Shown piece by piece: positions 2,376 through 26,379 of a stretch of 64,000 nucleotides of DNA. The notes beneath the pieces were generated by a model. It ran no database searches. It was not told the DNA's origin and worked only from the letters and a program-made list of their open reading frames with translations. The DNA is taken from contig NW_025064890.1 in NCBI RefSeq assembly GCF_019112545.1, positions 1,019,818 to 1,083,817 on the forward strand. Direction: 5' to 3'. The first letter of the stretch is position 1. Every line of letters starts with the position of its first letter. The stretch is from Guyanagaster necrorhizus (lineage: Eukaryota; Basidiomycota; Agaricomycetes; Agaricales; Physalacriaceae). Both the position numbers and the translations under genes were made by a program.

Positions 2376-2729
2376 CTATTGTCTATAAGATTCGTCAGCG
2401 GACCATCAAACCTCCCACAAACTCGAAAGCACTCACAAAAGCGACAGCGTGATGTCGCCATTGACCTTGGCCTTGATAGCGATCTCCACCTCAAGGTTAA
2501 GATCCAACCTGAGCTTCAGAGCCTCCTTCTGCTTGCCCACTCCCTGCTTGCCCGGCGCCACGACAGGTGGAGGTGGGTGATCGAATAATTGGAATTTTTT
2601 TTCTTTCGGGACGAAAACGGGGGTATCCCCATCAAAGGAGGACGAGGATGAGGAGGACGACGAGGAAGAGGACGAGGAAGAAGAGCGCGAACGCGTCTTG
2701 GTCTTGTTTGAACGGGCGGGGGCGGCCAT
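2376..2729 (-). CDS. Beta-alternating mini-protein, copy 1 (99 aa, poly-Ser)
   Basis: Two exons: 2437-2729 and 2376-2382, split by a 54-bp intron (2383-2436). The ATG at 2729 follows a TATA-like box by about 35 bases. The N-terminus is the longest of the family: a basic start, a run of about 16 serines, then a Pro/Lys-rich segment. The C-terminus is the family core, with alternating residues (ALKLRLDLNLEVEIAIKA), a VNGD turn and ITLSLL. The intron interrupts the last Leu codon after two bases, and the last exon adds only Gln and TAG, whereas the other three copies add Glu. The donor GTGAGT supplies an in-frame TGA if unspliced. No signal peptide or membrane helix is seen. Function is unknown; an amphipathic beta-hairpin is inferred from the pattern alone. 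Confidence 0.8.
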
Positions 2730-2762
2730 ATTTCTTGTTTCCAATGTAGGAAAGCGGTCATG

Positions 2763-2770
2763 CTTTTAAA
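2763..2770 (-). promoter_or_regulatory. TATA-like box of mini-protein copy 1
   Basis: TTTAAAAG on the minus strand, 34-41 bases before the ATG of copy 1. Boxes of the same type precede the other three intact copies at 40-60 bases. A short ATG-initiated frame (ATGACC) begins just downstream of the box and overlaps the main start out of frame, so if transcription starts between the two it could act as an upstream reading frame. Confidence 0.5.
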
Positions 2771-2799
2771 CGGGCGGTGGGGTAATGCTGGAATAGTTC

Positions 2800-3252
2800 T
2801 CGACTAATTCTGGCGGCCAGCATGGGACGGACGTACAGTCCGACCGCAGGTTACGGTCGGGTCGGGATCGACGATTACCTGTACATTCCTTGAAATTGTG
2901 CCAGCGCTTTCGTGAAGTTTGATCCGAGGGAGCACAACGACAGCGCGCGCACTAGTTTCGAGATTCGTGTTGTTGGAAATAGGCTCGTAAGGGCTGAGCA
3001 ATCTCGATACATTATCATAGTCGCAAAATCCTGTGACGTCTAATTAAATCCAGAGTTGAAGCAAGCAAGCAAGTACTCTGCGGTCTCCCAGGAACTACGC
3101 ACCTATGCTTAACGGCCACAGTGAGAGAGGTACCTTGACGCATCACGAGTGTAGGCCACTCGGAATTCCGGAGACTACTAGCGCCGCAGTCTAGATCACT
3201 GTAAAATGACTTTTTCGCTCTTGGTTAGAAAGAATAGTTGACTATATTCCAA
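2800..3252. other. Intergenic, no gene seen
   Basis: Spacer between divergently transcribed mini-protein copy 1 and the 292-aa protein gene. Short frames here have no motif. It presumably holds the promoter of the gene starting at 3253. Confidence 0.4.
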
Positions 3253-4187
3253 ATGGGACAATGTCATCGAAGCGAAGATGGAGTTTACGAAATAGGGTCT
3301 GGCCCTCGAATGACGAAAGCGGATCTAATTTACAGCTTGACAACGGGGGCTACGCGTCCTGAATGTTTCTTCATTTCCCCTCGAAATGGTAACTTCTTCG
3401 GGTCCGGCATCCGGCGGGCAAAAAAGTCGTCTACTGCAAACCGAATCAAAACAGTCATGGTTGTCGGCGTCATCGGTGTTGCAGCAGGCGCCGTGGCCAT
3501 TCCGCTAGCTGCAGTGGGAGCAGCGACGTCTGTAGCAAGTATAGCCCAGGGCGCAGGGAATCAACAAAGAGCTGCGGAGAACAACAACAACAACAACAGT
3601 GCACCAAAGGAGGCGGATAAGGATGATCCACGCTTAGCCAAGTTTACACTGTATGCACACTGCAGCGAAGATGCGCCGTTGAAAGAGTTTGTAGAGGACA
3701 AACAGGTAGTATTGAGGGATCACAAGGTGAGCAAATTAATTGTTCATGACGATCTGTGAGTTACTGATCCTCGCCAATGCAGCTATACCTTGCTGACCCT
3801 GATCAGGAGAAGCGAGAGGAGGGGGGACACGGGTTCGCCGGGTTCTTTATCCAGTACCCATGGAATAGCAAACCGATGGGACTCGTGAGCACAATCCAGC
3901 CAGACCCACCCGAGCTCAACTGGATATACGTTGATAAAGATACGCTTATCGTCACGTATGGTGGCAAGACACAGAGTCTGCCGCACATCGTTGGGCCGTG
4001 GGATTGGACAGACGACCAGGAGAGGATGACGTTCGAGGGCTGGGAAGGATTTGTAGCACTGGAGGAAAGCGAGGGAATATGGGTGCTGTGTTATGACCAG
4101 GACGAAGATTTGCTGGCTGGTGTGAAGAGTGGCAGGCGGATCCAAGAATGCACGTTGACAAGGAAGGTTTTGAATCCTGTAAAATAA
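3253..4187 (+). CDS. Uncharacterised 292-aa protein with Gly/Ala-rich hydrophobic segment
   Basis: Two exons, 3253-3726 and 3783-4187, separated by a phase-0 56-bp intron (3727-3782) with GTGAGC donor and CAG acceptor. The ATG at 3253 is chosen because the frame further upstream has no ATG. Residues about 66-97 form a Gly/Ala/Val-rich hydrophobic stretch that could span a membrane. An Asn run follows at about 110-115, then a charged linker and a folded-looking C-terminal domain rich in Trp, Asp and Gly. A small cluster of basic residues precedes the hydrophobic stretch. No catalytic motif was recognised. Tandem imperfect repeats follow directly downstream. Confidence 0.75.
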
Positions 4188-4221
4188 AGCATTGTACGCA
4201 ATTAACCATAGCTCGTATCTG

Positions 4222-4612
4222 CAGTCTGTCAAACATGCGCCGAAATGTATAAGTCATGTCGGTGGTTGCTCACGTTTCTCCTGTGGCCATGAGCGCGCTC
4301 GTCCTTTAGCTTCGTTAAAATTTTTGCAGAGGCATCGAGTTGAAGCGGGATGCAAAGACGAATTCAAATTCAAGAAGCGTCGGGCCGCGGTCACGGTAGT
4401 GCAACTTCATCCATGAACGCATATGTTCAGCAACCTGTGGTCTGTCAAGGATTCATCAGAAAGTCATCTAACAATGAGCCAAAATGTATGAATCACGTCG
4501 ATGGGTGCGCACCTCTCCCTAGACTGCTCTTCCTTTACGATTTTGCAGAAGCATCGAGTTGCAACTTGCAAATCGAGACGCATTCAAATTCAGGAAGTGT
4601 CGGGCTGCTGGT
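4222..4612 (+). repeat. Imperfect direct repeat, two units of about 175 bp
   Basis: Unit 1 (about 4222-4395) and unit 2 (about 4438-4612) share a series of blocks in the same order: CTGTCAA, a CAAAATGTAT-like block, a TCATGTCG/TCACGTCG block, GCATCGAGTTG, and ATTCAAATTCA followed by a G(A/T)GTCGGGC block. They lie between the stop of the 292-aa gene and the stop of the convergent DUF1295 gene, so they are a duplicated stretch of 3'-flanking sequence. Function is unknown. Confidence 0.6.
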
Positions 4613-4728
4613 GGTGAGTCTAAAGAGGCAATTGGTCGAACAAAGATAATTGCGTTTTTCAATATGTTACAACGAGCCGGCACAAGGATACACTTCGACT
4701 ACCTTGGAACTTACGCCAAAGTCTACTT

Positions 4729-5719
4729 TCAGTATATACCAGGAATCATACGGTACGGGACGCGACGTTGGTAATCCGTCCATTGGTCTCCATACTTCTT
4801 ACTCATATATGTCGCCAGTTCCGGGATGGAGAACGTGAACTGGGTAAACTGGAAGATCCCATAGCTGATGGTGGCAGAGATAGAGCCGGTAGCAAGAGTC
4901 ATCCCGCAATGCCATAAAAGGTAGCCCAGATAGTTGGGATGTCTCCTGTTGGAGGTGTCAGATAATGGGCACGTTTAAAATAAAAACAAGACGCCTACAC
5001 GAAGCCAAAAAGACCTGTATCATCAACTTTGCCTTTATTCTCCAGGTTTGCCTTGAAAGCCTTTCGTGATTCTTCAGCAACGATTTCCATGGTGATTCCT
5101 GCTGCAAACATTCCGAGTCCGACCCATCTGCATTAGAGGATCAATCGAAAGCCGGTCAAGACGGTCAAGAAACGTACTGATGCCACCCCAATGCCGATGC
5201 CCATCCTTCAAAGCTATCAGCGGGGATGCTCAGCAGAGGGGACGCCTTGGACAGCGTATAAGCCGCGACAAATGTGTTGAAAGTTGACGCAACAGCATTG
5301 TAGGCGCCGACGAACAGACTTGCAGAAGGCGGGAAATACGTTGAGTCGTTGGTGAACGTCACCCAGTAGCACTGTAATGCCAGTCAGAAATTGCAACCAC
5401 TTTCGAGTTGTAAACTCACATGACGAAAAGCGGCGACCGAGTACATCCCCATAAGCAAAGTTGGTACTGGACCAATACCGTTCCCTGATACCAGTGTTCT
5501 AGCTGGGTTAAGAATCCCGACGCGTACAAGCGCGTTGGCAGCGTATCCTTTTTCGAAGAGCGTGTACTGGAGTACGGGGCTGCGGTCATATATGAGTACC
5601 AGCGCGTCTCATTCAAGTGCTAGGACTCACTCGGCGGCGCGTAACGCAATAAATGTAAGCATTCCCGAGAGGGAGCGCTGATTGCTCCCTCGAACCATTG
5701 GAAGAGAAGAGTCGGACAT
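4729..5719 (-). CDS. DUF1295 / steroid 5-alpha-reductase C-terminal-type membrane protein
   Basis: Five exons on the minus strand (5631-5719, 5420-5579, 5178-5371, 4999-5127, 4729-4945) join in frame to give 262 aa; introns are 46-53 bp. The protein is hydrophobic with several likely membrane segments. Near residue 186 it carries GLFGFVRHPNYLGY, the signature of the DUF1295/steroid-5-alpha-reductase C-terminal family, followed by a GDQW...YQRRVP..MIPG ending also typical of it. These proteins are integral membrane enzymes, usually in the ER, that reduce double bonds or methylate lipophilic substrates; the substrate here cannot be told. The ATG at 5719 is the first in frame with a sensible N-terminus. 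The gene converges on the 292-aa gene upstream of it. Splicing between exons 4 and 5 uses a GTAGGC donor. Confidence 0.85.
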
Positions 5720-6332
5720 GGTGGTAGTGATAGGAATGGATGTCTGACCTGATCAGTGCTTATAAACGCCCTCGTAGCTTCGATGACGTCGCCTCCGATC
5801 GATCCACAAATATAGAACATCTCCAGCTCCTGAAAGGCTAAAATTAAGCAGCGCAGAGGAACCTCCCAAAATATTAGCAGAGGACTCAACAGACTCTGAC
5901 ACGAAGTCGGAGAACATGGGCATAAACCTGTTCAACCTCTAGATTTCGTCTGGATGACAACTCAGCTCCTCAGGGAAGGATGAGTAGGATGTTTCTTCTG
6001 GTGGATGTTCCTGAGCAGAAGATTATAACCATTTCCGTCGCGCAATTGCAAGCGTGTGCCACATAACCCAAGAATCAACAAGAAAACATCGGAATGGAAC
6101 GCAAGAGCGATGTCTAGTGACAGCTCTTGTATATTTCTGTATTTAAGAGAGTTAACACGTGCAGTGTAAGTCGCGTAGTAAGAACCTGAATTGCCTCCTG
6201 ACTGGAGCTGGGATAGTTGGTGACACGGAATTTGCCGGCAGTAGATTGCCGAATCCGTCAACGCTTGGCAAGAGCATCTCAGAAGTTCCTGCCAAATAAT
6301 AGTGCATATAGGACTTTACATCCAGTATCACC
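5720..6332. other. Intergenic, no gene seen
   Basis: Upstream flank of the DUF1295-like gene. Overlapping short minus-strand frames here have no shared phase or motif, and no RNA gene was recognised. Confidence 0.4.
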
Positions 6333-7270
6333 ATGCGTGCTGTTGAGCTCTTCGTAGTCCTCTTCTTTGTCGTTGTGGCTCCCGACGTCCTTTCAGAAAG
6401 TCCAATGACTTGAAAACGTGCTCCCAGTCCAGATTCTGCCGCCGACGACGCTCCGTACCGTCTTGGGGATGCCTTTACTCCGTCGACACATCGACAGTCT
6501 CTACCGGTGCAATGACGACAGCTGCGGTTAGATCATCATCTGTACCTTGATATCAAGGTGCATGAAGATGGCAATTGTCCGAGTGCGGATGGACGAGAAA
6601 GATGGTCTACGGAAGAGATACAACGAGGCCGCTTCATGGGCGTTGGTCACAGAGCCTCCGGTACTAGGCAGTTCAATGGAGAAGGATTTCCACCTGCACA
6701 CGAGGATCCGTCCATCGTCGTCGCGTACGAGCCATTGCGAGTGATTTTGAACAGACTTGCACATAGCATTTTCGTACTAAAAGGCCGGTGCGGGCAGATG
6801 TTGGGTCATAGGTACAGATGCAGACAGAGAACTCCTGCGCCTAGTTAGAGGGTGGAACTTGAAGAACAGGACGTATACTGGGACGAGACATTCAATTCTG
6901 GGACAGATTCTAAGTCGAAAGGTGCGTTTGTACTTTCTTCGAGACTGGTTCTGACTATACTTTCAGGTCCTGAATTCCTTTCGCTGTACATCGTGTTCCC
7001 TAACCATGGAACTGTTTATAGTATCTTATAACATACTACCCTACCAGTACTATCCAGTACTACAGAGGATAGCGCTACTTTCAGCGGATCCCTTTGTAGT
7101 ACATCGACGTATTCGAATACCCCGCCTCGTGTCACAGCGGTTCCATCTCCGTTATACACGCATGCACGGGCACTTTATGGGTTCTACCACCTTCAATGCC
7201 GTAGCTTCCAAGACACTGGATTGCCATACATCATCCCACTCCCAAGTCTTCACATTCCCACGGGATGTCT
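6333..7270 (+). other. Probable gene relic beginning with a signal peptide
   Basis: An ATG in good context (6333) opens a 26-codon frame encoding a classic hydrophobic signal peptide, ending in an Ala/Pro/Ser cleavage-like region and a TGA. The same frame continues directly after the TGA with a Lys-Arg pair and a Pro/Asp-rich stretch for about 37 codons. Further exon-like stretches follow at 6541-6846 and near 7050-7230 in other frames. The pattern suggests a decayed secreted-protein gene broken by a nonsense change and frameshifts. The family could not be identified, and this may be two unrelated fragments. Confidence 0.35.
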
Positions 7271-8699
7271 GAGTCTGTTATCATGGATATTTTCATCCGG
7301 GTTTCAAAATCGTTGATATGCTCTTCTTTGACTCCTCCGGTTCACTCGTTAAGCCCATCATGCAAAAGGACACCGTTACTGCACGAAGAGATGTGCTTGA
7401 CTAGGGAGCAAGGCGAGGCAGAGAACTCTGATGACTCAGATCGGCAAAATGGGGGCGCCGGCTGGTTACGAGCTAGATGCAAGAATGGCCTTGCTGCAAT
7501 CCGATTCACAGGCAAAATTGGATGGGTTCGGCTGGATTGGACAAGATATCTAGCAGGCCGAGCATCTGTGTGATAATAGGCAGACAAACGAGATTCCCAC
7601 TCTCTCTCGTACACAAGGTCCGTCCTATTTAATGAAAGTTATTAACAGACGTAACTTATCGAAGCCGTAAGTTCGAACGTAAGACGATCTCTTGAAACTA
7701 GGGGGAAAGGATTAAAAATATGCTCAATTGAGAAGCCTTGCAAATCTTGAGTGGTGACAGTATGTGTTGCTGTCTTTACATGATCCTCAGCTTCTCATTC
7801 TCACCAGCCCCACTTTCCGACCTTACCCAGACCCACGATGTGCGTTTTAGAGAAAAGAAAGCGGTGACGCCTAACACATTTCTATGAAGTGCATTCAATT
7901 ACGAGACTCGATATATCCAAAACCGGGGTTTGTCGACTGATTCCAAGCACGTATTCTGAAGTGTTATATTCTCTCGGTGATGACTAAATAGCACTTCATA
8001 TTGTAGGACGCACCCGTTCAAATCTTTCTATTAATTTCCTCGCAGCGTTTTCACCGGGACTCTGACTACACATGATCGGGGGGCATCAAACTCCATCGCT
8101 GTTTTCTATGCTCGCGGTTATGTAATTTCACATCTCTGCTTTGATGAACGCGTGTACGGAAAAAAGTCCATTCGCCATTCTAGCTACAGTGAGATAGCGG
8201 CGATGAGCAAATGACTGTTGACCCCCAAACTCCACGCATTTGCTTGATCAGCCTTCTTGAGCGCCTTTCGAAAAAAGGTATGTAGTTGTTTCACCTCCTT
8301 CCTGGCCACACTCTCGTAGAATGACGAAAGACTGAAGGGTGTGATGCGTCGGTCTGTAAAGACGGATTCAAACAATGTTCTCCACCTGTCCCAGGATGCT
8401 CTCAACTCCTCCCACACCGTCCACGACCGAAAACCAAGCTCATAATGGTATCGTGTGCATGATTGTCAATTCATAGGGACGCTGCAAGCTGCCTATTCGG
8501 ATTCTGTGCTCACTTGAAACCACTCATTTTCAACGTCTTTCCCAACGTTGCTTCTCCTGAGCATACACACTCGAGTAATGTCCAGTGGCATCTCCTTCCC
8601 GAGCAGCCCCGCCGAGACGATGATCTCCCTCGCGTTGCCCATACTCGCTGACGAGAAACAGACGAACCCTTGGGACGGCTGCGAGAATGAGGATGTACC
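7271..8699. other. No confident gene; one 77-codon minus frame
   Basis: Mostly featureless. On the minus strand at 8184-8417 a 77-codon frame rich in Trp, Arg and Phe could be the last exon of a gene, since the frame stays open upstream. No start, splice partner or motif could be fixed. Confidence 0.25.
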
Positions 8700-10177
8700 T
8701 GAAAAAAATTCAGGCTCGTCTGGTCCGCACCTTACGATTGCAATATGCCGGCGTCTGTTCTTGGTGTGCTCATTATCAATACGGGTATCTGTCTTCATAT
8801 CCTATGCGTTTCGGGGCAGCTCTCCAAAAATCGCGTTCCTGGCCATTTCGAATCTGCTCCAGGAGCTATGCGTTGTTCAGTGTTGTGCGGGACCTCAGTC
8901 GTGAGTTCCTTATTATTTAGGTATCGGGCTGGCGTTGACGCCTTCGGCAGATGGCCTTTTTGAGCTTGTAATCTCGTTGCAAGGGTACATCATCATAGCG
9001 GAATTTACTGTGGTGCGGCCGTTTCTGGCACGGTCTGGCTGATTCTCCTCGATGTGCGAGCCAAAAGGGAGCTCATCAATGACAAGGGAGTGAGCCCCAT
9101 TTCGCTGACTGCCTGATTCGTTCGCTGACATTCTTTCGTTCAGACCTCAGTAGCAGCCATTGTCCTTACCTGCATCATTCTGGCGTTCTTGACATGCATC
9201 ATTATCTGTTCATACCAGAAACTTCGTGTGAAGCGTCACGACACGTTTTGAGCACGTGCATCTATTCATGGGATGGACTGCAACTGCATTAGTTTGGGAA
9301 CGGGTAAGTAAGGCGTGATTATCCTTCCAATTCAATCCCACAGGTCGTCCCCACGAATGATCACAGGGTACAGATATATCTGGGAAATACCCTTGTTCAT
9401 CCGGCTTCCTTCTGGTTGATGATCGTCCTCAGTTGCTCGCGCCCTGGGTTAAACTCCATCCGTAGCGTCATTCTCTCAACCACACCGTTCAGATGTTCGT
9501 TGACTACGGTATATAACGTCGTTCTATTCTTTTCCTCAATCTTATTTCATCATGCCCTCACCCGGTTCCCGGATCATCCCGGCGGTTCTCTACTGACCTA
9601 CTGTGTGAGTGGCACAGCTTCGTTACCATCACCATTCCCGAAAAGATTAACTTCTCCATCATCTCCCAAGCTAGCGACTGGTCAACGGAAATGATCAATA
9701 ACCTCCAAAAGATATATGGGTTCGCGGGATCTCGACGTGTGGCTTGTTGCGAATTGTGTCACTCGTTTGTCGAGTATTGTTTGATGCTACAGGGAGAAGG
9801 ATTGCACCATTTACACCTCACATCACTAGTAGGAAATTTGACAAGGTGTTCTCGATAGCGCCGAATACGAGGAAGACCTTTGTGACCCTTTGGTTGATAT
9901 GGGGCTTCCATATAGCCCTGGTGCGGTTGTTAATGGTGTGGAACATCTATTCCTTCCTGTATCGCTACTGGCTTATCCTGTTCTAGATACTCGCAAGCCC
10001 GGTAAGCCGGATATCATCAAGCTCACACATCATCTGGTGGATGAGTTCAAGCCTGAGCGTGTTTGTCATTTCACACCAGAAGCTGACATAGAAGGTTATT
10101 ATGGCTTAAGGAACGAGGAGATGTTAGCTATTGGGGCTGATTCGACTTTTAGAGGTAATTCGCAAACATATTTTTAA
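8700..10177 (+). pseudogene. Decayed TmpA/ferric-reductase-like membrane oxidoreductase
   Basis: Order of recognisable pieces, all on the plus strand but in changing frames: a membrane segment with GTVWLILLDV (about 9026); a hydrophobic segment ending RHDTF, then HVHLFMGWTATALVW after a one-base shift (about 9235-9300); a 40-bp intron (9304-9343); APWVKLHP followed by an in-frame TAG (about 9450); EWHSFVTI (about 9610), the FAD-domain signature; WVRGIS.CGLLRI in another frame (about 9718); and DTRKPGKPDIIKLTHHLV (about 9990), the C-terminal signature. From memory this order matches the TmpA group of fungal integral-membrane oxidoreductase-like proteins. At least three frameshifts and one stop make it a pseudogene. 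The N-terminal boundary is vague. Confidence 0.65.
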
Positions 10178-11232
10178 GATTGATTGGATGCCTGTATATT
10201 TTAAGCAGTACCGTATTGAATCCAAAGTAGCTGCCTACATTCCGTGCTGCTGTATTTGTTGAAGATCTTTGCATTGCCCGGCCTTTCGCTGGAATTTATC
10301 AGGTACCTGTCCAATAGTGTTTTGGTTGTCCGGCGAAGCTCGGGAACTTTTCAATTTGCGAGCGCCACAAGCATGCGTTTCTAAATGGGTCCGAGAACCC
10401 ACTGCCAGTGGTGATTGTAGCCGCAAAAAGGTACCAAATAGTCCCTTGACCCGTGTAATGGCAATGAATGCGCAGGAAAAGAACACGACGTAGGGCCGCC
10501 GCATCGTGCACTGCTGAGTGTGCAGAAGTGTCCCAATCTGGTCTGAAATTTGAAGGAGAGAAGCTTGATAATCCGATGATGAGACTTCCCTAGCAACAGC
10601 GAGGCGAGGCCTGCTTGGTTCCTATAATTCACTCGCTCATTAATGGTGTCTCGAACATTTATTCAATATCATCTTCATTTTGCTAATATGTCTATTGCTC
10701 CTACGGTACCGAATGAGTCCAGGTAGTTCATAGATGGGGGATGTAGTTAAACGCGACGAAGAGCTGAAATCAAAGATGACAGTGTCATGGGCTTCCCACA
10801 AGAAGAAGGATACTTTGGCAAAGCTTGAGTCCCGGGAGACACGGACGCAGTATATTCCATAACTTGGCATATGGCAAGTTGGTAGAAAGAAGTTCAGGTG
10901 TGCTGCTGACCACAAGCGACGCGACAAAGACCGACACACCGCAAAAGCAAAGCTTCGTAAATTGCGTCCGCGGAAGATCAGAACACTTCAAAGTTCAGCT
11001 CAAGTGAGTAGTGGAGGTAGTAATCCGCAGGTCGCTGCAATTTGAAAGCATCAGGTCCGCTAGGTACCCAACTTGTGCGTCCGCAATTAGTTAAGTTGTC
11101 AGTGACCAGGCGGCCGGCTCACTTCTGAGCCAGGATTATGTCGCGAAAATCACCACGACCCTCCTGCTTCCTGGCGGTCGGCTCTCCTTCATGAATCCCA
11201 GAGTTGGTCCGTTTGAGATCCATCTAACAAAC
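10178..11232. other. Intergenic, no gene seen
   Basis: Only short overlapping frames without motif or consistent splice sites. No RNA gene recognised. Confidence 0.4.
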
Positions 11233-11379
11233 ATGTCTCAGCGATCCTCCAGCCGTTCTTCTTCTCCTGTTCCTGCCGTTGCACCTACAGCGCTTGACCC
11301 CACCATCATCGCCTCCGCACCTCCCGAGGAGACCTTGAAGCTCAAGTTGGACAGCCTTAATCTTTTATTAGCCCTGTAG
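11233..11379 (+). pseudogene. Truncated fifth copy of the beta-alternating mini-protein
   Basis: A 48-codon frame from ATG 11233 begins with a Ser/Arg-rich stretch reminiscent of copy 1, then a Pro/Ala/Thr-rich linker as in copies 2-4. It reaches the family core at EETLKLKLDSLNLLLAL and stops at TAG. LKLxLD and LNL are kept, but one codon is inserted and the second half of the core (VEIAIKAKVNGDITLSLL in the others) is lost. A weak GTTTGAGA sequence stands about 25 bases upstream where the intact copies have TTTAAAAG, so promoter and coding region seem to have decayed together. It could instead be a short divergent member. Confidence 0.55.
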
Positions 11380-12773: not shown

Positions 12774-12782
12774 TTTAAAAGG
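12774..12782 (+). promoter_or_regulatory. TATA-like box of mini-protein copy 2
   Basis: TTTAAAAGG, 48-56 bases before the ATG at 12830. It matches the position and sequence of the boxes before the other mini-protein copies. Confidence 0.5.
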
Positions 12783-12829: not shown

Positions 12830-13110
12830 ATGTCTTACGTTGCTGCTGCCCCTTCTGTCTTCGGCTCTGCCCCCGCTCCTCGTAGTGAAAGTGACAGCAC
12901 CAACCCCACCGCCGGTGCTGTCATCCAACCGACCCTCGGAAGGCTCGGTGGAAAGCAAAGGGAGGCGCTGAAGCTTCGTTTGGACCTTAACCTTGAGGTT
13001 GAGATCGCCATTAAGGCCAAGGTCAATGGCGATATAACCCTCTCCCTCTTGTAAGTAGATCCGGGCTCGTTTGGAAATACCGTGTTCTTAGCTTCACTTC
13101 CAGGGAATAA
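12830..13110 (+). CDS. Beta-alternating mini-protein, copy 2 (75 aa)
   Basis: Exons 12830-13050 and 13104-13110, intron 13051-13103 (53 bp, GTAAGT donor, CCAG acceptor). The N-terminus (MSYVAAAPSVFGSAPAPRS...) is an Ala/Ser/Pro/Thr-rich tail unlike the other copies. The last 33 residues are the conserved core, differing from copy 4 by a single Lys/Gln change. The intron enters the last Leu codon after two bases, and the 7-base last exon adds Glu and TAA. A later acceptor (TTTTAG at 13116-13119) would give a longer tail but breaks the match to copies 3 and 4, so it was not preferred. No signal peptide is seen. Function is unknown. Confidence 0.85.
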
Positions 13111-16689: not shown

Positions 16690-16925
16690 GCCAGCTAAAG
16701 GAAGTACAGAGCGTTGGGCTGGCGAAGGTCCCTACCGACCCTTCTGAGCTAATAGTAAGGATACCGCAAAACGATTGGCGAAGTCGCGTACAATTATGAT
16801 AGATCTGACCTGCCCTTCGTCCTATTCTATCCTTCCGGTGTCGAATAAAACATTGCCAAGCTGATTGACAGGCCCCCGGAAGGGTCGTTCTGACGTTCGG
16901 CATCCCAAGAATAAATGATACACTG
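16690..16925 (-). pseudogene. Partial duplicate of the AFG1-like gene 5' end
   Basis: About 230 bp align in the same orientation with the 5' part of the AFG1-like gene (about 23745-24030). Shared blocks include CTTCTGAGCTA, GTACCGCAAAA/ATACCGCAAAA, AGTCGCGTAC, ACCTGCCCTTCGTC, and an AATAAATGATAC block beyond the coding part. The copy covers part of exon 1, the intron and the start of exon 2, and has substitutions and small indels that stop the frame. It marks an old local duplication about 7 kb from the parent copy. Confidence 0.7.
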
Positions 16926-17264
16926 AACTATCAGAACCTCAAAAAATGAAAGGGATGCGAGCGTATTCTGTAGTGAGGGTAAAAGGGAGAACTGACGAGT
17001 CCAAAAACAGAAGCTTAGATTTGCCTTCAAACTGAGCATAAATCTCAAACAAACTCAAATTGGTATCTACAATATTTGAACGCTGCTGAATACACCTAAG
17101 AGATTGAATGTGAAGGGAAGAGATGATGGGAAGACATTCATGTAGGTAAGGATGATTCTAAGTGTAATAATTTCAATACTTCAACCGAGGCGTTATAATA
17201 AGAAAATCTTACCTGGAACGTCATCATAGAATGTCAATGCCATCCCTTCATGATCCCAGTACAA
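16926..17264. other. Intergenic, no gene seen
   Basis: A/T-richer spacer between the AFG1 fragment and mini-protein copy 3. No feature recognised. Confidence 0.4.
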
Positions 17265-17516
17265 TTACTCGCTAATAAAAAAAGGACAATTAGCCAGAGG
17301 ATACCACAGCATGAAAGCCACTCACAGGAGCGACAAGGTGATGTCGCCGTTGACCTTGGCCTGGATGGCAATTTCCACCTCAAGGTTCAGGTCCAAGCGA
17401 AGCTTCAAGGCTTCCTTGGGAGCGACGGCGCCTTGGTTGGAGCGGCCGACCAGTTGTCCGCCAGCGACGGAAGAGGTCTCAGCAGTGGTGTATTGAGTAG
17501 CAGTTGGGGCAGACAT
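17265..17516 (-). CDS. Beta-alternating mini-protein, copy 3 (65 aa)
   Basis: Exons 17326-17516 and 17265-17271, intron 17272-17325 (54 bp, GTGAGT donor, TTATTAG acceptor). This is the shortest member: a Ser/Thr/Gly/Gln-rich N-terminal tail of about 30 residues (MSAPTATQYTT...) and then the conserved core with Gln where copies 1 and 2 have Lys. The last exon completes Leu and adds Glu and TAA. The start MSAP is shared with copy 4. A TATAAAAGG box lies 34-42 bases upstream. Function is unknown. Confidence 0.85.
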
Positions 17517-17549
17517 TGTGATGCTGAAGAGTAGTCCTGACGAGCTCGG

Positions 17550-17558
17550 CCTTTTATA
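17550..17558 (-). promoter_or_regulatory. TATA box of mini-protein copy 3
   Basis: TATAAAAGG on the minus strand, about 34-42 bases before the ATG. This is the best match to a canonical TATA box among the four copies. Confidence 0.6.
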
Positions 17559-17579
17559 CTACGAGTCTTAGGATCAGGG

Positions 17580-18593
17580 TACGGACAACGTTATTATCGC
17601 GCCATCGTGAATCGGGTGTCCTGCCCTAACAATTTGAGTTTGTAGAAGACCGCAAGAGAGGGTCCACATTTCGTATTGAACATGCTGCAGATACGAGTGA
17701 CACCTGTCGCTTAAACGCGATTCGAGGCCTTCTGAGAAGCAATTGGGTAAGTTCGGATGTGTTCGACACGATGGCCTTGCCGTGTCGTTGAAAAAAGGAC
17801 GAAGTAACAGATGGACACTTGTAAGTCCAGGCTAAGTGGCCGTGGGAATGGAAACTGGCCCCGACTTGTCTCTTGCCACCATAAGGATCCACCAAACCTT
17901 CTCAGTTCGCTATTCCTGCATGGATACCATGCAATTTTGTGCGCCACAGCCCTATTCTTCCCTTGAAATTTCTTGCAGCGATGCCACGGAGCTCATCTCG
18001 TTATACGGAACGGCATGCGGTAGTAGGAATCAGCAAACTATGAGCGAAGAACCTTCTCGCGAAGTGAGAAGTCTTGCCCGAAGCTTGTCGTCCCTGGTTA
18101 CTTACCACACTCCTAGGAGCACGACACCCAGCCTCAGTTGCGCCACCGTATTTTTCCCTCTCTATCTCAGCAATGGAAAAGAGCAAGTCTACCTGATACC
18201 AAAGAGTGACATTTTCGCGGCCCTGATAACCTAAGCGTTCAAGATTCATTTTTGTTATTACGAATAAGGATGCTCTTGTAGGTTCATAAAGTCGGTGTTG
18301 CTAAGGGTCAGAAGTTCATGCCCTGTTTGAGCGACTATGCCGTACTACGGGCTTCGAAAATTTGCCACTTAGCAACATGTCTTCCATCGGTCTCCTTCGC
18401 TCATCGTACCTATCAGTCACGCCGCCGCGTTTCCTTCAGGCTTCTTTATCACCATCTTGCCAATTGAATGCTCTTCGACATCATTTGTTCGCGATGTGAA
18501 GCGGTCCTGAAGAGATCTCTCTCCTGCGATCAGTTGACGCATCGGAAAGACAGGCAGGAAGGGTTTCATGTTCGCACTTCGGTTGAATGGACG
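17580..18593. other. No confident gene
   Basis: A 132-codon plus frame (17836-18234) and overlapping minus frames show no motif or splice support. Nothing else recognised. Confidence 0.35.
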
Positions 18594-18830
18594 ACGGGAA
18601 CGGCCTCTACTAAAAATCTTCGAGAAATGCTCCATTTTGTAAGAAGTATAGCATAGTTCGCGTATACTATGCTAAATCGGACAATTAGCGCTTCTACGGC
18701 CTTGAATGGTCCATGGGAACAACCTCTTCTGGACACAATCGAGAATCACCAGCGCTTCATAGCAACACTCCGTTTTGTAAGTGATATAGAGTGTTGTTCA
18801 CGTATACTATGCTGAATCGGACGACAGGCT
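18594..18830 (+). repeat. Two direct repeats carrying a palindrome
   Basis: Two diverged units (about 18594-18685 and 18712-18828) share CGGGAAC/TGGGAAC, TCGAGAA, CCATTTTGTAAG/CCGTTTTGTAAG and a CACGTATACTATGCT-like block followed by AATCGGAC. In unit 1 the block forms a perfect inverted repeat, TAGCATAG (18649-18656) facing CTATGCTA (18667-18674). In unit 2 the left arm has decayed. Confidence 0.5.
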
Positions 18831-20144
18831 CCCTTTCGTTTGGCACTTTTCGATGCTCAGGGAGTGAAGGGTCCAATGATTATTAACATTGGCCTCCAGT
18901 AGTCAAGACTTCCAAAGCGCTTCTCACCACCATGTCCCTGTGTCATTACAGAATCGTTACTGACAACTGCCAGGAGACGTCAAGGTAACTTGGATCCAGA
19001 GGTCTCGTCATCAGGCGGAGAACCAAGAGTTTGCGAGAAAAGCTTGTTCACGTCTAGGCTCTGAGAACGACTTTCGTGAGCAGTCTTTTTTTGAGGCATG
19101 TTTTCAGCCTAGCTATTTATGACGGTCCTCTACAGGGTTGACCCATCTCGTAACATTCAAAAGTCTCTCCACCGTTCTTGGAACCATGGAAGGAGATACG
19201 GGAGAGGACATCTACCTGCAGACAAGACCAACCTGTCACTTTTTAGTGGAGATACAGTCGAACAGAACCTGACCCGGGCACTTGATCTTTCTTCTTGTTT
19301 TACCGACACCAAGTCAGCAAGCTAATTCCTCATCGTATTGATATGTATCAGTCGGCGCGCCTCCTGATGTTCATCATGCTCTTTCATCAGGCGTCGTGCC
19401 AGAAGTTTGGGGTTATCGGGCACCCTTGTCCAGGCAGCGCCTGCCGTTCCAGCCGCAGACTCTCGACGGAACTCTGCCACCTTTCAGCAACACTTTGTTT
19501 TGTTTGACGGATCTGGACCAGCCCTCGCGGACATAAGGGTCCGATGCTCATCATGACGAGCATGGAGTTCGACTCTTCCGAGATGCAATCCTGCCCCATG
19601 AGATTCCGGAGCTGAACTGAGTACCGTGTCTTCATGGTGATCTTTCTCGCATGCCTTGCTTCTATCTGGGTGGCCATAAGGGTTCGCACTTGTTCAAGTC
19701 ATCATCGTGGATGGTCGTTCATGGATATTGCAAAAAAAAATACCGCCAACATCTCGTGGTCTTAGCATTTGCTTGATGCTTTCTAGCTCTTCAGCCTTGA
19801 CCGCGTTCTGAATCTCATCTTTCCTATTTCCTTAACAAGGCAGAGCTTGCCCGCTGAGAATCCAAAATGTAACTCCAGCATTCATGGATAACAGCGTCCG
19901 GCGCCTATGGTGAGGAATTATCATCTCTCGATAACACGCTTTGCACGTTTACTCCGCATGTCCCCCAAACGGTAGCATCTACCAGACCTGTCGTTCAGGG
20001 AAGTTAGGACAAGTCCTCCTGCTTTCATGTCGGGGTCTATTTGGACCGCAAGCGTTTCGATTCCACGTCTGTGTTCCCAGTTGAACGAGCAACGCTAATA
20101 TCCAGATCTAATAACGCTGGCAACTACTGATATATGATCTGTAG
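18831..20144. other. No confident gene
   Basis: Scattered exon-like stretches on both strands, for example a minus-strand stretch near 19750-19840 reading EIQNAVKAEELESIKQM. None can be tied into a gene, and the region looks like eroded genic DNA. Confidence 0.3.
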
Positions 20145-20413
20145 ATGGAGAGAAACCACATTGATTATGGGTTGGCTGTGAATGAGAATACTTTGGAGCA
20201 GGTGTTCGATTTCCTACTTCCATGGACGTTCATACTTCTGCCCTTCTCAAGCAAACCGAGCCACAGGATGATGTTCAGGCGGTTCAAGTCAAGACTCTAG
20301 CTAGATATAATCCTCCAATTCCTTGGGACGAGGAAAATTTGGATTCGTCTCACAATGTAGCATCAAATACCTATTACCTATTTTGGGGAGGTAGATCTAT
20401 CAATGCTGTCTAG
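20145..20413 (+). CDS. Small two-exon gene or last exons of a larger one
   Basis: Exons 20145-20201 and 20252-20413 join in phase 0 across a 50-bp intron to give 72 aa, starting MERNHIDYGLAVNE and ending in an aromatic stretch NTYYLFWGG before TAG. The ATG is directly preceded by CTGTAG, so it may instead be an internal codon of a longer gene whose upstream exons are lost. No family recognised. Confidence 0.35.
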
Positions 20414-20458
20414 TCGCTCAAACAGTAAAGCTTTTCGTTTGGGGAAATGCCGAGTCTC

Positions 20459-22000
20459 TCAATCATGTTCTCGCGAGTAAAATAACCTCAAGTGGTCCAA
20501 ATACAATGGGACCCGCTGCTCGACCCGCATCTTTAAATTGTCGCCAGTGAGTACTCGGATATCCGCTTCCATACCATGAACATTGTCCTGATGCAGGTCA
20601 TCATAGAACTGCACTTCAATTGTTTTCAGCAGTCCTGTATCACGGCGAGATCTGATCATATCGAGTAGGGCAAACTGTTCTCTCCTTGAGAAATTCGGAT
20701 CCATGAAGCAGAGGACGAGATGGTGCAGATTGGGCAGGACGGAGGGAGGGGCGAGGGCATTGCTAATGGTTATCGTTCGCGAGTCAAGTTCAATTTTGAA
20801 GTGAGAGATCGTAAAACATGCTTCAGATAAGAAGATGTTCCTAATTGATGCCGACGACAACGCCGTCAAGCACATACCCAGGCTCTTGAGATGACATCCC
20901 GATCGACAGAAGAAAGGGATGAGGTCGGACAATGGTTGCGATGGACCTGCAGAAATGCTCAGACGTTGGAGCCTCGGTGCCGTTAGGAGCTTGAGGGCAT
21001 GTATATCGTCCACATAGAGCTGGCAGAGCTCCGTCATAATTACCGGCACCGCAATTAAGGCTAGCAACAGCTGAGTGGGCCAGAAGTGACACACTCTGAG
21101 CTTGGGTAGCTGGGAAAGGAGTTGTAAATCTTCCGCACAAGTGATACGTCCGGAATAATGAGTTATCCCGAGCGGTAACTGCACTTGATGGATCCCCATG
21201 AGTGAAAGGGATGCTTTCCATAGCTGCGGGGCATTCAAGCACATGTCCAAGCGATAAACATCGTCGCTGTCATCCCAGATATTTATTTGAAACGTCTGCA
21301 GGACGGGAAGGTGCGATATAGATTTCGGGTGGTGCGTATGAGACATGAGGGAGGTAATGTACAGGTTCTTCCAGCGTTGGCAGGATTGAACAAGTAGGGA
21401 CATTATTTCGTTGGCGTTTGCCAGCTTGGTTCTGGTTAAGGAGATCCGCATACTGAGAGGATGTTGGCCGGTTTGTTTGAGATATGTCTTCCAAATCTCG
21501 CAGGCATGCTTAGAAAAAGGGGCCCTCACTAGGATATTCCGAGCCCAAGATACGGGCGAGATGTATACTGTATCCCTCCAAAGCCCACAGACACGACCTA
21601 AGACCCAGATGGGCCCAGCCATGTCTAGACTATTATCACAGTGTTTTTCTTCTCCGTTTTCATCCTGCCACCAAGAGTCGCAAACAGAATGGATGATTTC
21701 AATGACAATATCTCGGGGGAGGCGACGAATGGGGGCATAAATGGACTTGCGATTTTCCAGGGCTTTCAAGATCGTATGGTGACGCAACTGGATCTCTTGA
21801 AGTTGAGCATTATACGAGGATTCCAGCCTCTCCAACTCTTCGATTTGCGCGTTGATCAAGGCATGGTCAGAGTCGAACAATGGTCGTAAGCCACGCAGAA
21901 TTTCCGAAATGATGCCATCAGAGTTCTGGATAGCTTTTAGCTGTGGTTCGGGAGGAGGGAAATTGAGGAATCCGCAGTTGCTGCAGGTAAGGCACGACAT
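20459..22000 (-). CDS. F-box / leucine-rich-type protein, 513 aa
   Basis: A single-exon frame. ATG 22000 is preferred although the frame stays open to 22150, because MSCLTCSNCGFLNFPPPEPQ is the usual N-terminus of this basidiomycete F-box group, with Cys-x2-Cys pairs. A coiled-coil heptad pattern covers about residues 48-88. The F-box follows at about 89-125 (IRRLPRDIVIEIIHSV and a downstream VCGLWRD). The remaining about 370 residues are irregular Leu-rich repeats. F-box proteins recruit substrates to SCF ubiquitin ligases; the substrate is unknown. The large paralogue numbers usual in these fungi fit three F-box genes in one window. The frame is intact and codon use is host-like. Confidence 0.8.
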   Translation of the reverse strand: MSCLTCSNCGFLNFPPPEPQLKAIQNSDGIISEILRGLRPLFDSDHALINAQIEELERLESSYNAQLQEIQLRHHTILKALENRKSIYAPIRRLPRDIVIEIIHSVCDSWWQDENGEEKHCDNSLDMAGPIWVLGRVCGLWRDTVYISPVSWARNILVRAPFSKHACEIWKTYLKQTGQHPLSMRISLTRTKLANANEIMSLLVQSCQRWKNLYITSLMSHTHHPKSISHLPVLQTFQINIWDDSDDVYRLDMCLNAPQLWKASLSLMGIHQVQLPLGITHYSGRITCAEDLQLLSQLPKLRVCHFWPTQLLLALIAVPVIMTELCQLYVDDIHALKLLTAPRLQRLSISAGPSQPLSDLIPFFCRSGCHLKSLGMCLTALSSASIRNIFLSEACFTISHFKIELDSRTITISNALAPPSVLPNLHHLVLCFMDPNFSRREQFALLDMIRSRRDTGLLKTIEVQFYDDLHQDNVHGMEADIRVLTGDNLKMRVEQRVPLYLDHLRLFYSREHD

Positions 22001-22286
22001 CGAATTGAAAATCCTGGAATATGGCTTGAGAAATCGTTGGAAGAAGATGAAAGCACATAAAGGATGTCCAAAGTTATCAGAAATCCCCCTTCCGAGCCGC
22101 ATAGAATTGTGCAAAGATGAGAAGGGAGCAATGTCTTCACGCCAAGGCATGCAGGAGGCAGAAACTGCACCCCCAACGTAGACTTAGGAAGTCTAGGCTC
22201 TCAACGCAAAAATGAAGCAGATTTACAAGTCGGACGTCGAGCACCGCCGTAGTTGCGGAAAACGCATCCTTGTCAAATGGATAGGT

Positions 22287-24010
22287 CTACTTCTTCCTCT
22301 CATCGTAAGCACTCACGCCTTTGCCCCATCTACCACCCCCTCCCCAGTCCTCGAGAACACCCCACATATTGTTTTCGCTCAACCGGAGAGCAGAAGCAGC
22401 CTGAGGTCCGCTAGAACGATATGCCCCTCCATAACCAGCTACCACACTGCTTCCTTCCCACGTCTTTACCCTAGGTTTCCAGTGGCGCTCGGGTTTCTTC
22501 TCGCTCACTGCCATCTGAGTGGCGGTATGAGATCACATTTGGACGATACTTCTCCAGGCTGACAGACTCTGCCAACATCACGTCCGTATTGTCTGTCCCG
22601 CGATCAACGTCGATTTGGAAGAGATCGTCCAGTTGTACGTCTTCCATGTACACCACTCTGCAGCGAGCTTCATACAGAGCATCGACGAGACTGATAAACC
22701 TCCTAGCCTGATTCTTCCCGGAAGGCAGGCGGATGATGGGTATGTCGGTGATGATAATGGTGCGAAACGTGGAAGACAGTGTAAGGTAGTTGGCTGGGCC
22801 AAGGGACTACATATATCTGAGTCACTGCGGTCGTGAAAAAGAGGCTGGATGGCCGTACCTCTTCGCAAAGTTGCTGAAACGAGAACATGCACGTAACTCC
22901 TTGGGCTGATACGCGAGGAACATGAAATTGACGGCCAAAGACGGTAAGGTTACGAGATGACGAAAAGCCGATCTGCGCATCGACAACATTTTCAAACTCG
23001 TCCTTCTCTGTACTGAGAAACCACATTTTCAGCCCTGATGCTGTTTGAGCACCCAGGATTCGCCAATCTTTGTTCTCGTCTTCCCCGACGTTGACGACCT
23101 CGCATCGGGCCCTTAACGCTCCGCCAAATGTATCAAGCCTCTCTCGCTGAACACCATTAACGTAGAGATCCTCTGGAACCTTGTTCGAGGTTCCAACGAC
23201 GACACCGCCCATGCGCCAGTAACCATATCAGGACATATGAAAGAAGAAGCGTGCTGGAGACGTCTTGGAGTTGGACTTCGTCAATGAGGAGAACGTACGA
23301 TGAGCGTAAGATCTTGGAGGCGAGGACGTATGGGATAGGTACTGAGTACTGGAGTGAAGGGGGTGGTCGTCGCAAACGATGCCAGAACGAATCGAACTTG
23401 TCGATGTCGACAGTAAGCATCTGGCGCACCTGATCACGGATGGATCTGGTCCACGTCGTCGGTTCGACGCTACTATGAGAAGGTTCAACATCGCGCATTC
23501 GCTTGGCTGTCTCCTCCCATACGGCACGGTAGAGATCGAGTACGAACTCGTTGTAATGTTTACGAGACTTGTAGGGTGTCGACAAAGATGCGAACCAGGT
23601 ATCGGCTAGAAACGTCTTTCCTGAGCCCGGAGGGCCGGTGAGAAATAAGCCTTTGGGGGACGTCAGCTGTTCCATCTCGAGGGCGAGATCTTTGGACTTG
23701 ATGAGTGCTTTCATGTCTACAGTGGAATGCCCAGGAGACATGTCGGCCAAAGGAAGGGACGAGCTTTGGGCTGGAGCATAGTTGCGGAGGTCCCTACTGA
23801 GCCTTCTGAGCTACTAGTGGGAAAATGAGGGTACCGCAAAAAGATTGGCAAGTCGCGTACCTTCATGATAGCTCTAACCTGCCCTTCGTCATATTCTATG
23901 CTGCCAGAGTCAACTAGGGCATTGTGTCTGTCCAGCAAGTCTGTTTGCACAAGCTGAGTTGAGAAATAACGGACTCTCGGAACTGTGGTTGTGAAGTTCA
24001 GCGTCACAAC
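22287..24010 (-). pseudogene. AFG1/LACE1-type mitochondrial ATPase, frameshifted
   Basis: Exon 1 (23861 to about 24007) encodes RVRYFSTQ, a presequence-like stretch, and YDEGQVRAIMK. Exon 2 (22859-23810) has Walker A GLFLTGPPGSGKT, Walker B LLIDEVQLQDV, and then, after a one-base shift near 23219-23226 (TGGTTACTGG), WRMGGVVVGTSNKVPEDLY. Exon 3 (from 22806) has SLGPANYLTL...ITDIPIIRL..NQARRFISLVDALYEA and ends at TAG 22471. A tail conserved in style continues in another frame to TAG 22287. No in-frame ATG starts exon 1. Family members act in mitochondrial protein quality control. Two frameshifts and a missing start argue for a recent pseudogene. An assembly error is possible but less likely, since neighbouring genes read cleanly. 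Confidence 0.7.
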
Positions 24011-26059
24011 AACAGCTCAAAATAAATGATACGATATAAGCGCAAACAGCTGGCCATAACGATAGAGTCTCAAGGCCTCAAAGCTTGAAGTGTGATGGTC
24101 GAGAAAAAGGAGCGTCGGAAATCCGGTCCGATGTAGGTCTGAAAGATCATACACAGCCACCAAGGTGCTGAAATTTGAAATTCGGGTCTCCCCCGTACGT
24201 TCACAACGTGAAACGACATCAACATCCTTAGGGAACGCATGTATCTTGGGCTTCAAGCAGGTGAATTCCAGAAAATGAACGCTCGATATCGTGGCGAAGA
24301 ACGGAGCAGCTCTTTTGTGTCTCTTGTCAACCACTAACGGAATTGTAGTCATTTCTGACTTTCCATCATTATGCCTCCACTGTTTCTGACGTCTCTAATA
24401 CTTTGACAATTTGCTTGTCTCGTATCAACTCATCGTGGAGATCAAGAGATAGTTGCTGTTTTCGTTACTGGGCCTGACTAGTGTACCCGGCTTCCTTCCC
24501 AGTGCTCAAGCATTTTTTCATAATCTCCGTTTACCCACTGTTATCAGTCCCAACCAGGACAGCTCCAGAACCTTTTTTCATTTCATCACGTGTTTCTCGG
24601 AGAGGTATGTACGTCGAATTTGGGGCCTCGAATTCCAGAGCCCAAAAGCAAAGTAAAGCCGGGGTATATGTGGTACCTGGGCATGCTTTAGTTAGAAAAA
24701 TTTCATGATGCTCTACCTCCTGTTTTATCTGTCGTTGAGCCAGTGATTCTTAAACTAACTTTCGGTTCGTCCAGACGGACAATCTTTAACCGTAAAAAGA
24801 AGTAGAGCTACCCGATATAGATGAGCAGAACCTGCGGTACTGTGCTAATTAATTCACATAGGAAATGAAAGCCCATGAGAGGTCCCAAGGGCAATATGCT
24901 CCGAGATATTCTTCAGAGCCTCAACTGAATTTCGCCGGAATATTTCTTACTTCAAGCTCGATAATTTACTATTTCCCTGAGTTGGGCTAACTGCTCCATG
25001 CTTCAGTTTTGCGCTGGAAGTTCTAAAGCGACCGCCATGGTAATGAGTACGAGAGGGGCTCCAAGAAGCCAAGTTATTCCAGGCCTCGAACGTTCAAAAA
25101 GTCAACCCGAACTTCGAATGGATCCAAGCCAACTGCGCCTGGGTCTGTTCCTGCCGCTCTCCACGGTGTTCCCCGGCTCCTTCTTCTTGCAATGGAAGAA
25201 TGACCGTAGTTGCAACAGTCCAACCAATCGCATTAGAAATCACTTGCGACCGATCGCAGAATGCAGAATAATAGTGAACAACGATGACCTCACAAGAGTT
25301 CTGGTCACCTTTTGGTTTACGGTACGACCCTGTCATCGGGCACAGCTGCCCTCGGGAAGACTCTGGTCTCCACCAGTAATACAGAAAAGGTCAAAAGTAC
25401 ATCTTGGTCTGCGAATATTGCCGTCACCGTTGGTACCTAATTAGTTTGCGAGCAAAACGCGAGTTTTCAAACGACACAGCAAGTCGGAGAACGGTGAGTT
25501 GTGATCTCATACAAGAACCAGATGCGCCGCAGTAGTAGTGTCAATTTTGCTTTGATCAGAAGATTCGCCACCGAGAGAGGCGGCCCAAATCCAGAACAGA
25601 AGGTAATTGGCGAATGTCGGCAGCGAGGCTTCGCGGGTTGATATCGCACCCTTGTCGTGGACTTACAAACGAATTCGCTTTCGGTCCGCTCACTTACGGC
25701 ACCCAAATTTCCGAACTTCTCTCCGAGTACGCCCGCCGCCACCTCAAGCCAATCCGGTGCGTCGCTGGACGGTCTCGAATTGCTGCTCCCAACTCCACTG
25801 GACAGATGTCATTTCAGAAGGTTACCGTATTTCATTTGTAACTCGTGAACAGCTCGTGTACGCAGCATACTGAATTCTATGAAATGGAATTCTGTCCGAT
25901 GCACGACGCACCAGTCCCGAGCTGTACTTGGAAATCTCTATCACCAGAACAGGTTAAGTTGCTAGGAACGAAGGAGACGGTTACCCGATAGTAATTCTGG
26001 GGTGCAAACGACCGCTATGTTTATGTTACTCCAAAACTGTAAGTAGAGTTAGATGACCG
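24011..26059. other. No confident gene; several exon-like stretches
   Basis: A 111-codon ATG frame on the minus strand (24017-24352) lies just upstream of the AFG1-like gene. Another minus-strand stretch near 25700-25790 reads SSDAPDWLEVAAGVLGEKF and ends in a GTAAGT donor. Neither could be extended into a gene. The rest is featureless. Confidence 0.3.
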
Positions 26060-26068
26060 TTTAAAGGG
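26060..26068 (+). promoter_or_regulatory. TATA-like box of mini-protein copy 4
   Basis: TTTAAAGGG, 42-50 bases before the ATG at 26110, in the same place as the boxes of the other copies. Confidence 0.45.
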
Positions 26069-26109
26069 AGAGGAAATCCAACGTTCACTTCAGTATCCAC
26101 TGCTACATC

Positions 26110-26379
26110 ATGTCTGCCCCACAAACCACTACTCAATTCGCCCCCACCGACGCAGCCTTCGCCGGTGATAACCAAGTTGCCCCCGCCACCAACAAAGGGT
26201 TGGGCCGCGGCGGTGTTGGAAAGCAAAAGGAGGCTCTGAAGCTTCGCTTGGACCTTAACCTCGAGGTCGAGATTGCCATTCAGGCCAAGGTCAACGGCGA
26301 CATCACTCTTTCACTCCTGTAAGCACTCTCCTCCCTTCGCAAGATTAGCCTTCAACTGGAACTGGGTTGCAGTGAGTAA
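26110..26379 (+). CDS. Beta-alternating mini-protein, copy 4 (71 aa)
   Basis: Exons 26110-26318 and 26373-26379, intron 26319-26372 (54 bp, GTAAGC donor, TTGCAG acceptor). The N-terminal tail is Thr/Ala/Pro/Asn-rich (MSAPQTTTQFAPTDAAF...), then GVGKQKEALKLRLDLNL and the rest of the core, ending SLLE. Against copy 2, the 30 core codons from GAG to the intron show 12 silent differences and one Lys/Gln change, which is strong evidence for selection on the protein. Without splicing the frame would end at TAA inside the donor, losing only the last Glu. Function is unknown. Confidence 0.85.

Follow-up and report, generated by a model that had tools for sequence, protein, structure and literature searches.

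Gene copies at the locus

We analyzed a 64,000-nucleotide (nt) stretch of the Guyanagaster necrorhizus genome (hereafter the window), which spans C11:1019818-1083817 in an assembly of 53.3 Mb and 109 contigs. The short introns and the gene content suit a fungus, probably a basidiomycete of the mushroom type. A 24-kb part of the window holds four intact copies and one decayed copy of a mini-gene, distributed on both strands, and all of them are present where a first-pass annotation had placed them. Each intact copy encodes a small protein in which a variable N-terminal tail precedes a 30-residue core with the consensus EALKLRLDLNLEVEIAI[QK]AKVNGDITLSLL. The copies belong to a clustered multigene family of small proteins that is larger than the first-pass annotation had reported, and strong purifying selection on the core at the protein level is strongly supported by comparison of its coding sequences.

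Copy 1 is on the minus strand. Its TATA-like box (TTTAAAAG) is at 2763-2770, and exon 1 (2437-2729; core codons at 2436-2525) runs for 98 codons to the final Leu-Leu (LL) of the core and includes a long Ser-rich tail; a predicted terminal intron (GTGAGT...ATAG, 2383-2436) separates it from exon 2 (2376-2382), which completes the Leu codon and adds Gln and a stop. The other three intact copies have the same layout, with Glu in place of Gln. In copy 2, on the plus strand, the box (TTTAAAAG) is at 12774-12781, the 74 codons of exon 1 at 12830-13050 (core codons 12962-13051), the predicted intron (GTAAGT...CCAG) at 13051-13103, and exon 2 at 13104-13110. Copy 3, on the minus strand, has its TATA box (TATAAAAG) at 17551-17558, 64 codons to LL in exon 1 at 17326-17516 (core codons 17325-17414), a predicted intron (GTGAGT...TTAG) at 17272-17325, and exon 2 at 17265-17271. 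Copy 4 is again on the plus strand, with a TATA-like box (TTTAAAGG) at 26060-26067, 70 codons to LL in exon 1 at 26110-26318 (core codons 26230-26319), a predicted intron (GTAAGC...GCAG) at 26319-26372, and exon 2 at 26373-26379. The decayed copy (11233-11379, plus strand) has a tail and the start of the core (ETLKLKLD) and then leaves the core; an exon-2-like stretch (CGAGTAA) is found downstream. The range given in the first-pass annotation, 2376-26379, begins and ends exactly where copies 1 and 4, when spliced, are predicted to stop, although that annotation mentions no intron.

Genome-wide distribution

A protein search of the genome with the core identified 43 places, and using the most distant copy as a second query also identified 43. 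Scanning fetched stretches for the pattern GD[I/G]TLSLL recovered the same 43 places and a 44th, C11:1001382, where the tail is intact and the core is broken. The protein search was exon-wise, and all genome-wide copy counts are lower bounds. The core is open in 42 of the 44 places, the exceptions being C3:1883995, which has a stop inside, and C11:1001382. The decayed copy of the window lies outside the counts of 43 and 44, and at least three decayed copies exist genome-wide. All 43 core matches sit in short open frames of 63-156 amino acids, with one core per gene, and the copies are dispersed on both strands. Thirty of the 42 intact copies fall within ~195 kb (C11:853-1047 kb); the protein search found no core in C11:870001-935000, a stretch outside the pattern scan. 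The other 12 intact copies are on C13, C14, C20 (two), C27, C33, C45 (three), C54 (two), and C92.

Some copies lie within larger duplications. Contigs C27, C33, and C92 (L025, L026, and L027) share a multi-kilobase block that contains one mini-gene along with further frames, including one that looks SH3-like by eye; on the sequence, this block is a segmental duplication. A divergent mini-gene pair is also duplicated, at C54:120-121 kb (L022) and C11:1000-1001 kb (L017), and one of its four cores is broken, with the tail intact.

Predicted terminal intron

After the last Leu of the core, nearly every copy reads GTGAGT, GTAAGT, or a near form, and because these letters follow directly, the visible stop (TGA or TAA) appears to be part of a splice donor. 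An AG follows a short distance downstream, and beyond it the frame consists of one residue and a stop. The rule Leu plus Glu, Gln, or Asp plus stop, which was set after the letters had been viewed, fits 39 of the 44 places, compared with 86 of 4400 shuffled downstream stretches; of the 39 places, 31 have a branch-like CTRAY word before the acceptor. When any residue is allowed, 41/44 places fit, with introns of 49-59 nt, versus 619/4400 shuffles. The three misses are the decayed C3 copy, C11:964730, which has lost its donor, and C45:66012, where donor and acceptor both depart from the consensus; in the latter two, a stop still comes immediately after LL in the frame. We infer splicing of the terminal intron from these signals. 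The predicted spliced product thus does not finish at the in-frame stop of the core, and in the 39 places that fit the rule the protein usually ends in LL-Glu.

In 37 of the 41 copies with intron signals, the donor holds an in-frame stop, so that the proteins from spliced and unspliced messages would differ only at the very end; the intron has been kept in these copies although so little of the product changes. The four other donors (GTATGT twice, GTTAGT, and GTACGT) contain no in-frame stop, and in these copies the donor is still usable and the two-codon exon is kept, so the sequence gives good evidence of a real splice. Retroposition was rejected as the copying route, as the intron signals are kept; the copies therefore appear to have spread as DNA. 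A two-codon terminal exon with a donor that supplies the stop of the unspliced message is unusual gene anatomy, and gene finders could miss or truncate such genes.

Conservation of the core

The 42 intact 30-codon cores occur in 40 distinct DNA versions that encode only 11 distinct proteins. Over all pairs (Nei-Gojobori method), the proportion of synonymous differences (pS) was 0.55, the proportion of nonsynonymous differences (pN) was 0.059, and the ratio of nonsynonymous to synonymous divergence (dN/dS) was 0.062; leaving out the C13 and C14 copies (40 remaining) gave a core dN/dS of 0.049. The first-pass annotation had proposed protein-level selection, and the ratio is indeed about 0.06, not near 1, over the intact cores. 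Its comparison of copies 2 and 4 was reproduced exactly, with 12 silent differences and one replacement in the core codons.

The six charged sites of the core carry the exact residue in 245 of 252 cells (site by copy), a conservative substitute in three, and another residue in four. The eight Leu sites are exact in 330 of 336 cells, conservative in five, and otherwise in one; the last eight core residues, including three of these Leu sites, belonged to the pattern used in the 44-place scan. Among the residues of the predicted turn, Asn22 is found in 37/42 copies and Gly23 and Asp24 in 42/42; the latter two are part of the scan pattern, yet they are present in all 43 matches of the independent protein search. 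Gene conversion was rejected as the cause of the identical cores because it would wipe out silent differences too, and 40 distinct DNA versions persist among 42. Constraint at the RNA level was rejected likewise because silent differences persist between cores. For a peptide with no named domain, 42 paralogues with nearly the same 30 residues at a pS of 0.55 represent a very strong constraint.

Tails and descent of the copies

The tails are 20-103 residues long (20-44 in 39 of the 42 proteins) and rich in Ser, Ala, Gly, Pro, and Thr, a disorder-like composition; Cys occurs in 2/42 proteins. Most N-termini read MSAPE... or similar, with no signal peptide or hydrophobic stretch as judged by eye. 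The earlier statement that the tails differ completely is too strong, since copies 1 and 4 share GVGKQKEALKL, copies 3 and 4 share an MSAP start, and subfamilies are apparent genome-wide. A search with one tail identified 21 places, comprising 20 intact core genes and the broken C11:1001382.

Tail difference tracks the silent distance of the attached core (Mantel test, Spearman rho 0.60; reached in 0/2000 permutations), and unlike tails on near cores form only two pairs. These results leave the proposed interchangeable display tails mostly unsupported; the tails form subfamilies that seem to have been mostly inherited with their cores rather than freely swapped. Like tails (distance <0.2) on silent-distant cores (pS >0.45) form 14 pairs, which may reflect tail constraint or some exchange. 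Among 145 pairs with tail identity of ≥60%, dN/dS was 0.27 in the tail and 0.034 in the core, the tail value being biased downward because like-tail pairs were chosen. In a midpoint-rooted FastTree phylogeny of the 42 coding sequences, read without regard to branch support, copies on other contigs, except for the one on C13, nest within C11 lineages, a pattern consistent with spread from the C11 cluster.

Promoter signs and codon usage

In 39/42 copies, a TATA-like box is found 30-65 nt upstream of the ATG; the rate is 0.6% at random places and 0.7% at random ATGs. The loose list of TATA forms was drawn up after the family upstreams had been viewed, and the figure for strict TATAAAA is therefore safer: 28/42 copies, versus 0.4% of random places and 0.6% of random ATGs. 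All of these figures use predicted ATGs, two of which were chosen by hand (C11:971520 and C11:964730). GTTACGT occurs in 11 of the 42 upstreams (0.4 expected), mostly at -210 to -156, and GCACCCG in 10 (1.0 expected), with the longer form GGCACCCG at -131 to -99; the recurrence of these words may stem partly from common descent.

Median codon adaptation, for which the reference was 593 codons from this genome's histone H3 and best-actin exons, was 0.67 (range 0.38-0.77), whereas 0.50 is expected under the codon usage of the neighbours; 38/42 copies exceed the mean of that expectation by more than two standard deviations. Twelve other frames (neighbours and actin relatives) scored 0.46-0.59. 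Codon usage in the family is thus nearer to that of histone and actin genes than to that of neighbouring genes. Three features speak for expression, namely the TATA-like boxes, the predicted intron with its conservation, and the codon bias; the products are probably abundant.

Neighbouring features

Frames near the copies include an AFG1-like ATPase, a kumamolisin-type protease pro-domain, a nonribosomal peptide synthetase-like frame, a DDE transposase, and Cyt-like frames, and F-box-like frames recur a few times. Two Cyt-type (Bac_thur_toxin) frames lie inside the mini-gene cluster, at C11:949272-949991 (L012:4272-4991) and C11:977292-977894 (L015:2292-2894). The second is below the Pfam cut-off, and a genome-wide search for the Cyt family listed only the first and missed the second, so that further members may exist elsewhere in the genome. 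Their co-location with the mini-genes concerns this one neighbourhood only.

A U2 spliceosomal RNA gene (36104-36287, plus strand, 92.5 bits) sits at the border where the fraction of guanine plus cytosine (GC) drops from 0.50 to 0.40 and below. The part of the window from 36000 to 64000 is an AT-rich block (GC 0.36-0.41). It contains a reverse transcriptase frame of copia type at 37343-37882; at 57.0-57.9 kb, several reading frames hold long open frames that overlap, and no tandem repeat was found.

Searches for known families

In a Pfam-A search of 13 of the 42 proteins, no family scored above its curated cut-off. This set included the four longest proteins and represented the four window copies by three, and the tails outside it are at most 42 residues long. 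Against the PDB, a single core gave one chance-level match (E value 3.7) and a profile gave none. The first-pass annotation knew of no named family with this core, and within Pfam-A (for the 13 proteins) and the PDB that statement holds, no known domain having been matched with confidence. The viral scan covered 59 pattern stretches and the prokaryote genome scan 76, and no match was confirmed in either; this outcome is expected for a fungal family, and both scans are silent about other fungi. Predicted proteins of other Agaricomycetes may have similar C-termini. Literature searches found no paper containing the peptide strings tried, and word searches for such a family returned none that was relevant.

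Structure and possible mechanism

For the 20-residue arm of the core, ALKLRLDLNLEVEIAIQAKV, the hydrophobic moment is 0.96 at 180 degrees and 0.01 at 100 degrees, and none of 20000 permutations reached the former value. The alternation of hydrophobic and charged residues noted in the first-pass annotation is thus far beyond chance, and the N-G-D turn before ITLSLL fits a hairpin.

The mechanism that these features best support is assembly through a beta-sheet core, in which we place somewhat less than even confidence. The proteins would be small and leaderless, each with a flexible Ala/Ser/Gly/Pro/Thr-rich tail and a near-identical, C-terminal, beta-forming core composed of an alternating strand of ~20 residues, a tight N-G-D turn, and a short second strand, ITLSLL(E). 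Each core would pair with cores of its own and sister proteins to form a sheet-like homo- or hetero-oligomer, with Leu, Val, and Ile packed on one face of the sheet and the exact polar set on the other, while the tails would project outward and drift by subfamily. Since each copy would have to fit all the others, the core would be held fixed even as silent sites diverged. Exact identity on both faces would imply tight packing, not loose lipid contact, and it points either to assembly of the cores with one another or to one partner that encloses them. The proteins are probably intracellular because they are leaderless. We infer strand structure, assembly, abundance, and intracellular location alike from the sequence.

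Several results weigh against beta-sheet assembly. AlphaFold2 predicted a helix for the core alone (mean predicted local distance difference test score [pLDDT] 82) and a low-confidence core helix in the whole protein (pLDDT 56.5); both models rest on a four-sequence alignment with near-identical cores. Short inputs with shallow alignments tend to drift toward helix, but the prediction still counts against a strand. Antiparallel self-pairing of charges was no better than for permuted polar faces, 17127/20000 of which reach it; a register exists (K4-E14, R6-E12, and D8-N10) but is not significant, and a charge-complementary antiparallel dimer was rejected as a statistically supported model. The same invariance of the core would also follow from a common binding partner. 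The strand or hairpin assembly proposed in the first-pass annotation is suggested only by the alternation; the predicted helix and the charge-pairing result speak against it.

The core may instead be a docking tag, a ligand of one shared partner (by beta-augmentation or as a bound helix) for which the family supplies tail versions. This is possible, if on balance not probable: near-exact conservation of both faces would also fit a peptide in a conserved groove, the AlphaFold2 helix fits a bound helix, and in 41/44 places the core extends as far as the predicted splice donor, which lies two codons short of the end. However, an all-against-all comparison of frames of ≥40 amino acids, which covered 21 sources (the window up to 36 kb, and neither the C3 nor the C14 stretch), identified no second family amplified with each copy among the 40 largest groups, and such abundance and 42 paralogues would be unusual for a docking ligand. 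We consider it unlikely that the core is an amphipathic, lipid- or surface-active peptide acting on membranes or an air/water interface in the manner of a leaderless fungal repellent. The strong strand amphipathicity is consistent with such a role, and repellent peptides of 35-53 amino acids are reported to form surface-active amyloid-like fibrils (PMC4617103); a lipid-facing surface, however, should tolerate Lys/Arg and Asp/Glu swaps (3/252 cells) and Leu/Ile/Val swaps (5/336 cells), which are rare here, and the MSAPE...-type N-termini show no signal peptide by eye.

A further reading, in which the core is the effector-side copy of an amyloid signalling motif shared with NOD-like receptors (NLRs), draws on its hydrophobic alternation and G-D pair, as NLR motifs with a G[DN] bigram have been reported from Agaricomycetes (PMC9815663). 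This signalling role was rejected and seems very unlikely: all 43 core matches are in short frames of 63-156 amino acids, seven NACHT matches fall on C36, C39, C46, and C52, contigs without any core match, and the 13 scanned proteins contain no effector domain above cut-off. The NACHT and core searches were exon-wise and give lower bounds, such that an intron-split motif or an NLR could have been missed. Most improbable is that the copies are passengers of a mobile or selfish element and their reading frame is incidental. Dispersal on both strands, the presence of some copies in larger duplicated blocks (C27/C33/C92 and C11/C54), and a DDE transposase frame among the copies would suit this explanation; against it stand a dN/dS of 0.06 with strongly diverged silent sites, the kept splice signals and TATA-like boxes, and the biased codons. 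The dN/dS value excludes incidental coding of the core, an exclusion that does not extend to passenger spread of a selected gene.

Returning to beta-sheet assembly, an extended version is speculative and in our view doubtful: the family may represent an undescribed natural class of intracellular self-assembling beta-peptides, with one near-invariant 31-residue module, many tails, and a common kind of TATA promoter. Its members would form a polymer or gel of mixed subunits, and the paralogues expressed would determine the surface of that structure.

Comparison with known systems

Hydrophobins are small, multi-copy fungal proteins that assemble and have eight cysteines and a signal peptide. The family likewise consists of small multi-copy fungal proteins; unlike in hydrophobins, there is no eight-cysteine pattern, with Cys in only two of the 42 proteins.

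Fungal NLR amyloid signalling motifs (HRAM, PP, sigma, PUASM, and Agaricomycete variants) are described as short and C-terminal in effectors (PMC9815663), and the family core is also a short C-terminal motif with a G-D pair. However, no core was found in an NLR-like frame, the same motif was not found at the N-terminus of an NLR in this genome (43/43 matches in short frames, as lower bounds), and no effector domain (HeLo-like, MLKL-like, or PNP_UDP) precedes the core in the 13 proteins scanned.

The repellent peptides of Ustilago maydis (Rep1) are reported as short, amphipathic, and forming amyloid-like fibrils (PMC4617103), and the family resembles them in that its members are short amphipathic fungal peptides. 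Rep1 is secreted and cut by Kex2 from one repeat precursor, whereas the family has one gene per peptide, mostly with a TATA-like box and intron; there is one core per gene and no signal peptide or hydrophobic N-terminus by eye, and Kex2 sites were not searched for.

The core is presumably similar in sequence to KLD-12. More generally, it shares with the ionic-complementary peptides EAK16, RADA16, and KLD-12 an alternation of hydrophobic and charged residues and positive-then-negative blocks on one face (PMC6928719); EAK16, which derives from yeast zuotin, is reported to form beta-sheet nanofibres (PMC6928719). Strict polar/non-polar alternation is present in the core (moment at 180 degrees 0.96; 0/20000 permutations), and its inter-strand charge arrangement is matched by 17127/20000 permuted faces. 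The ionic-complementary peptides are designed or isolated simple repeats, whereas the core is a non-repetitive sequence of 30 residues with a turn, nearly fixed in 42 natural genes. By analogy, the family's mode of action may resemble that of ionic-complementary peptides and repellents. If the core assembles, the family would count as a natural counterpart, encoded in genes and with tail variation built in, of the designed peptides that form beta-sheet hydrogels.

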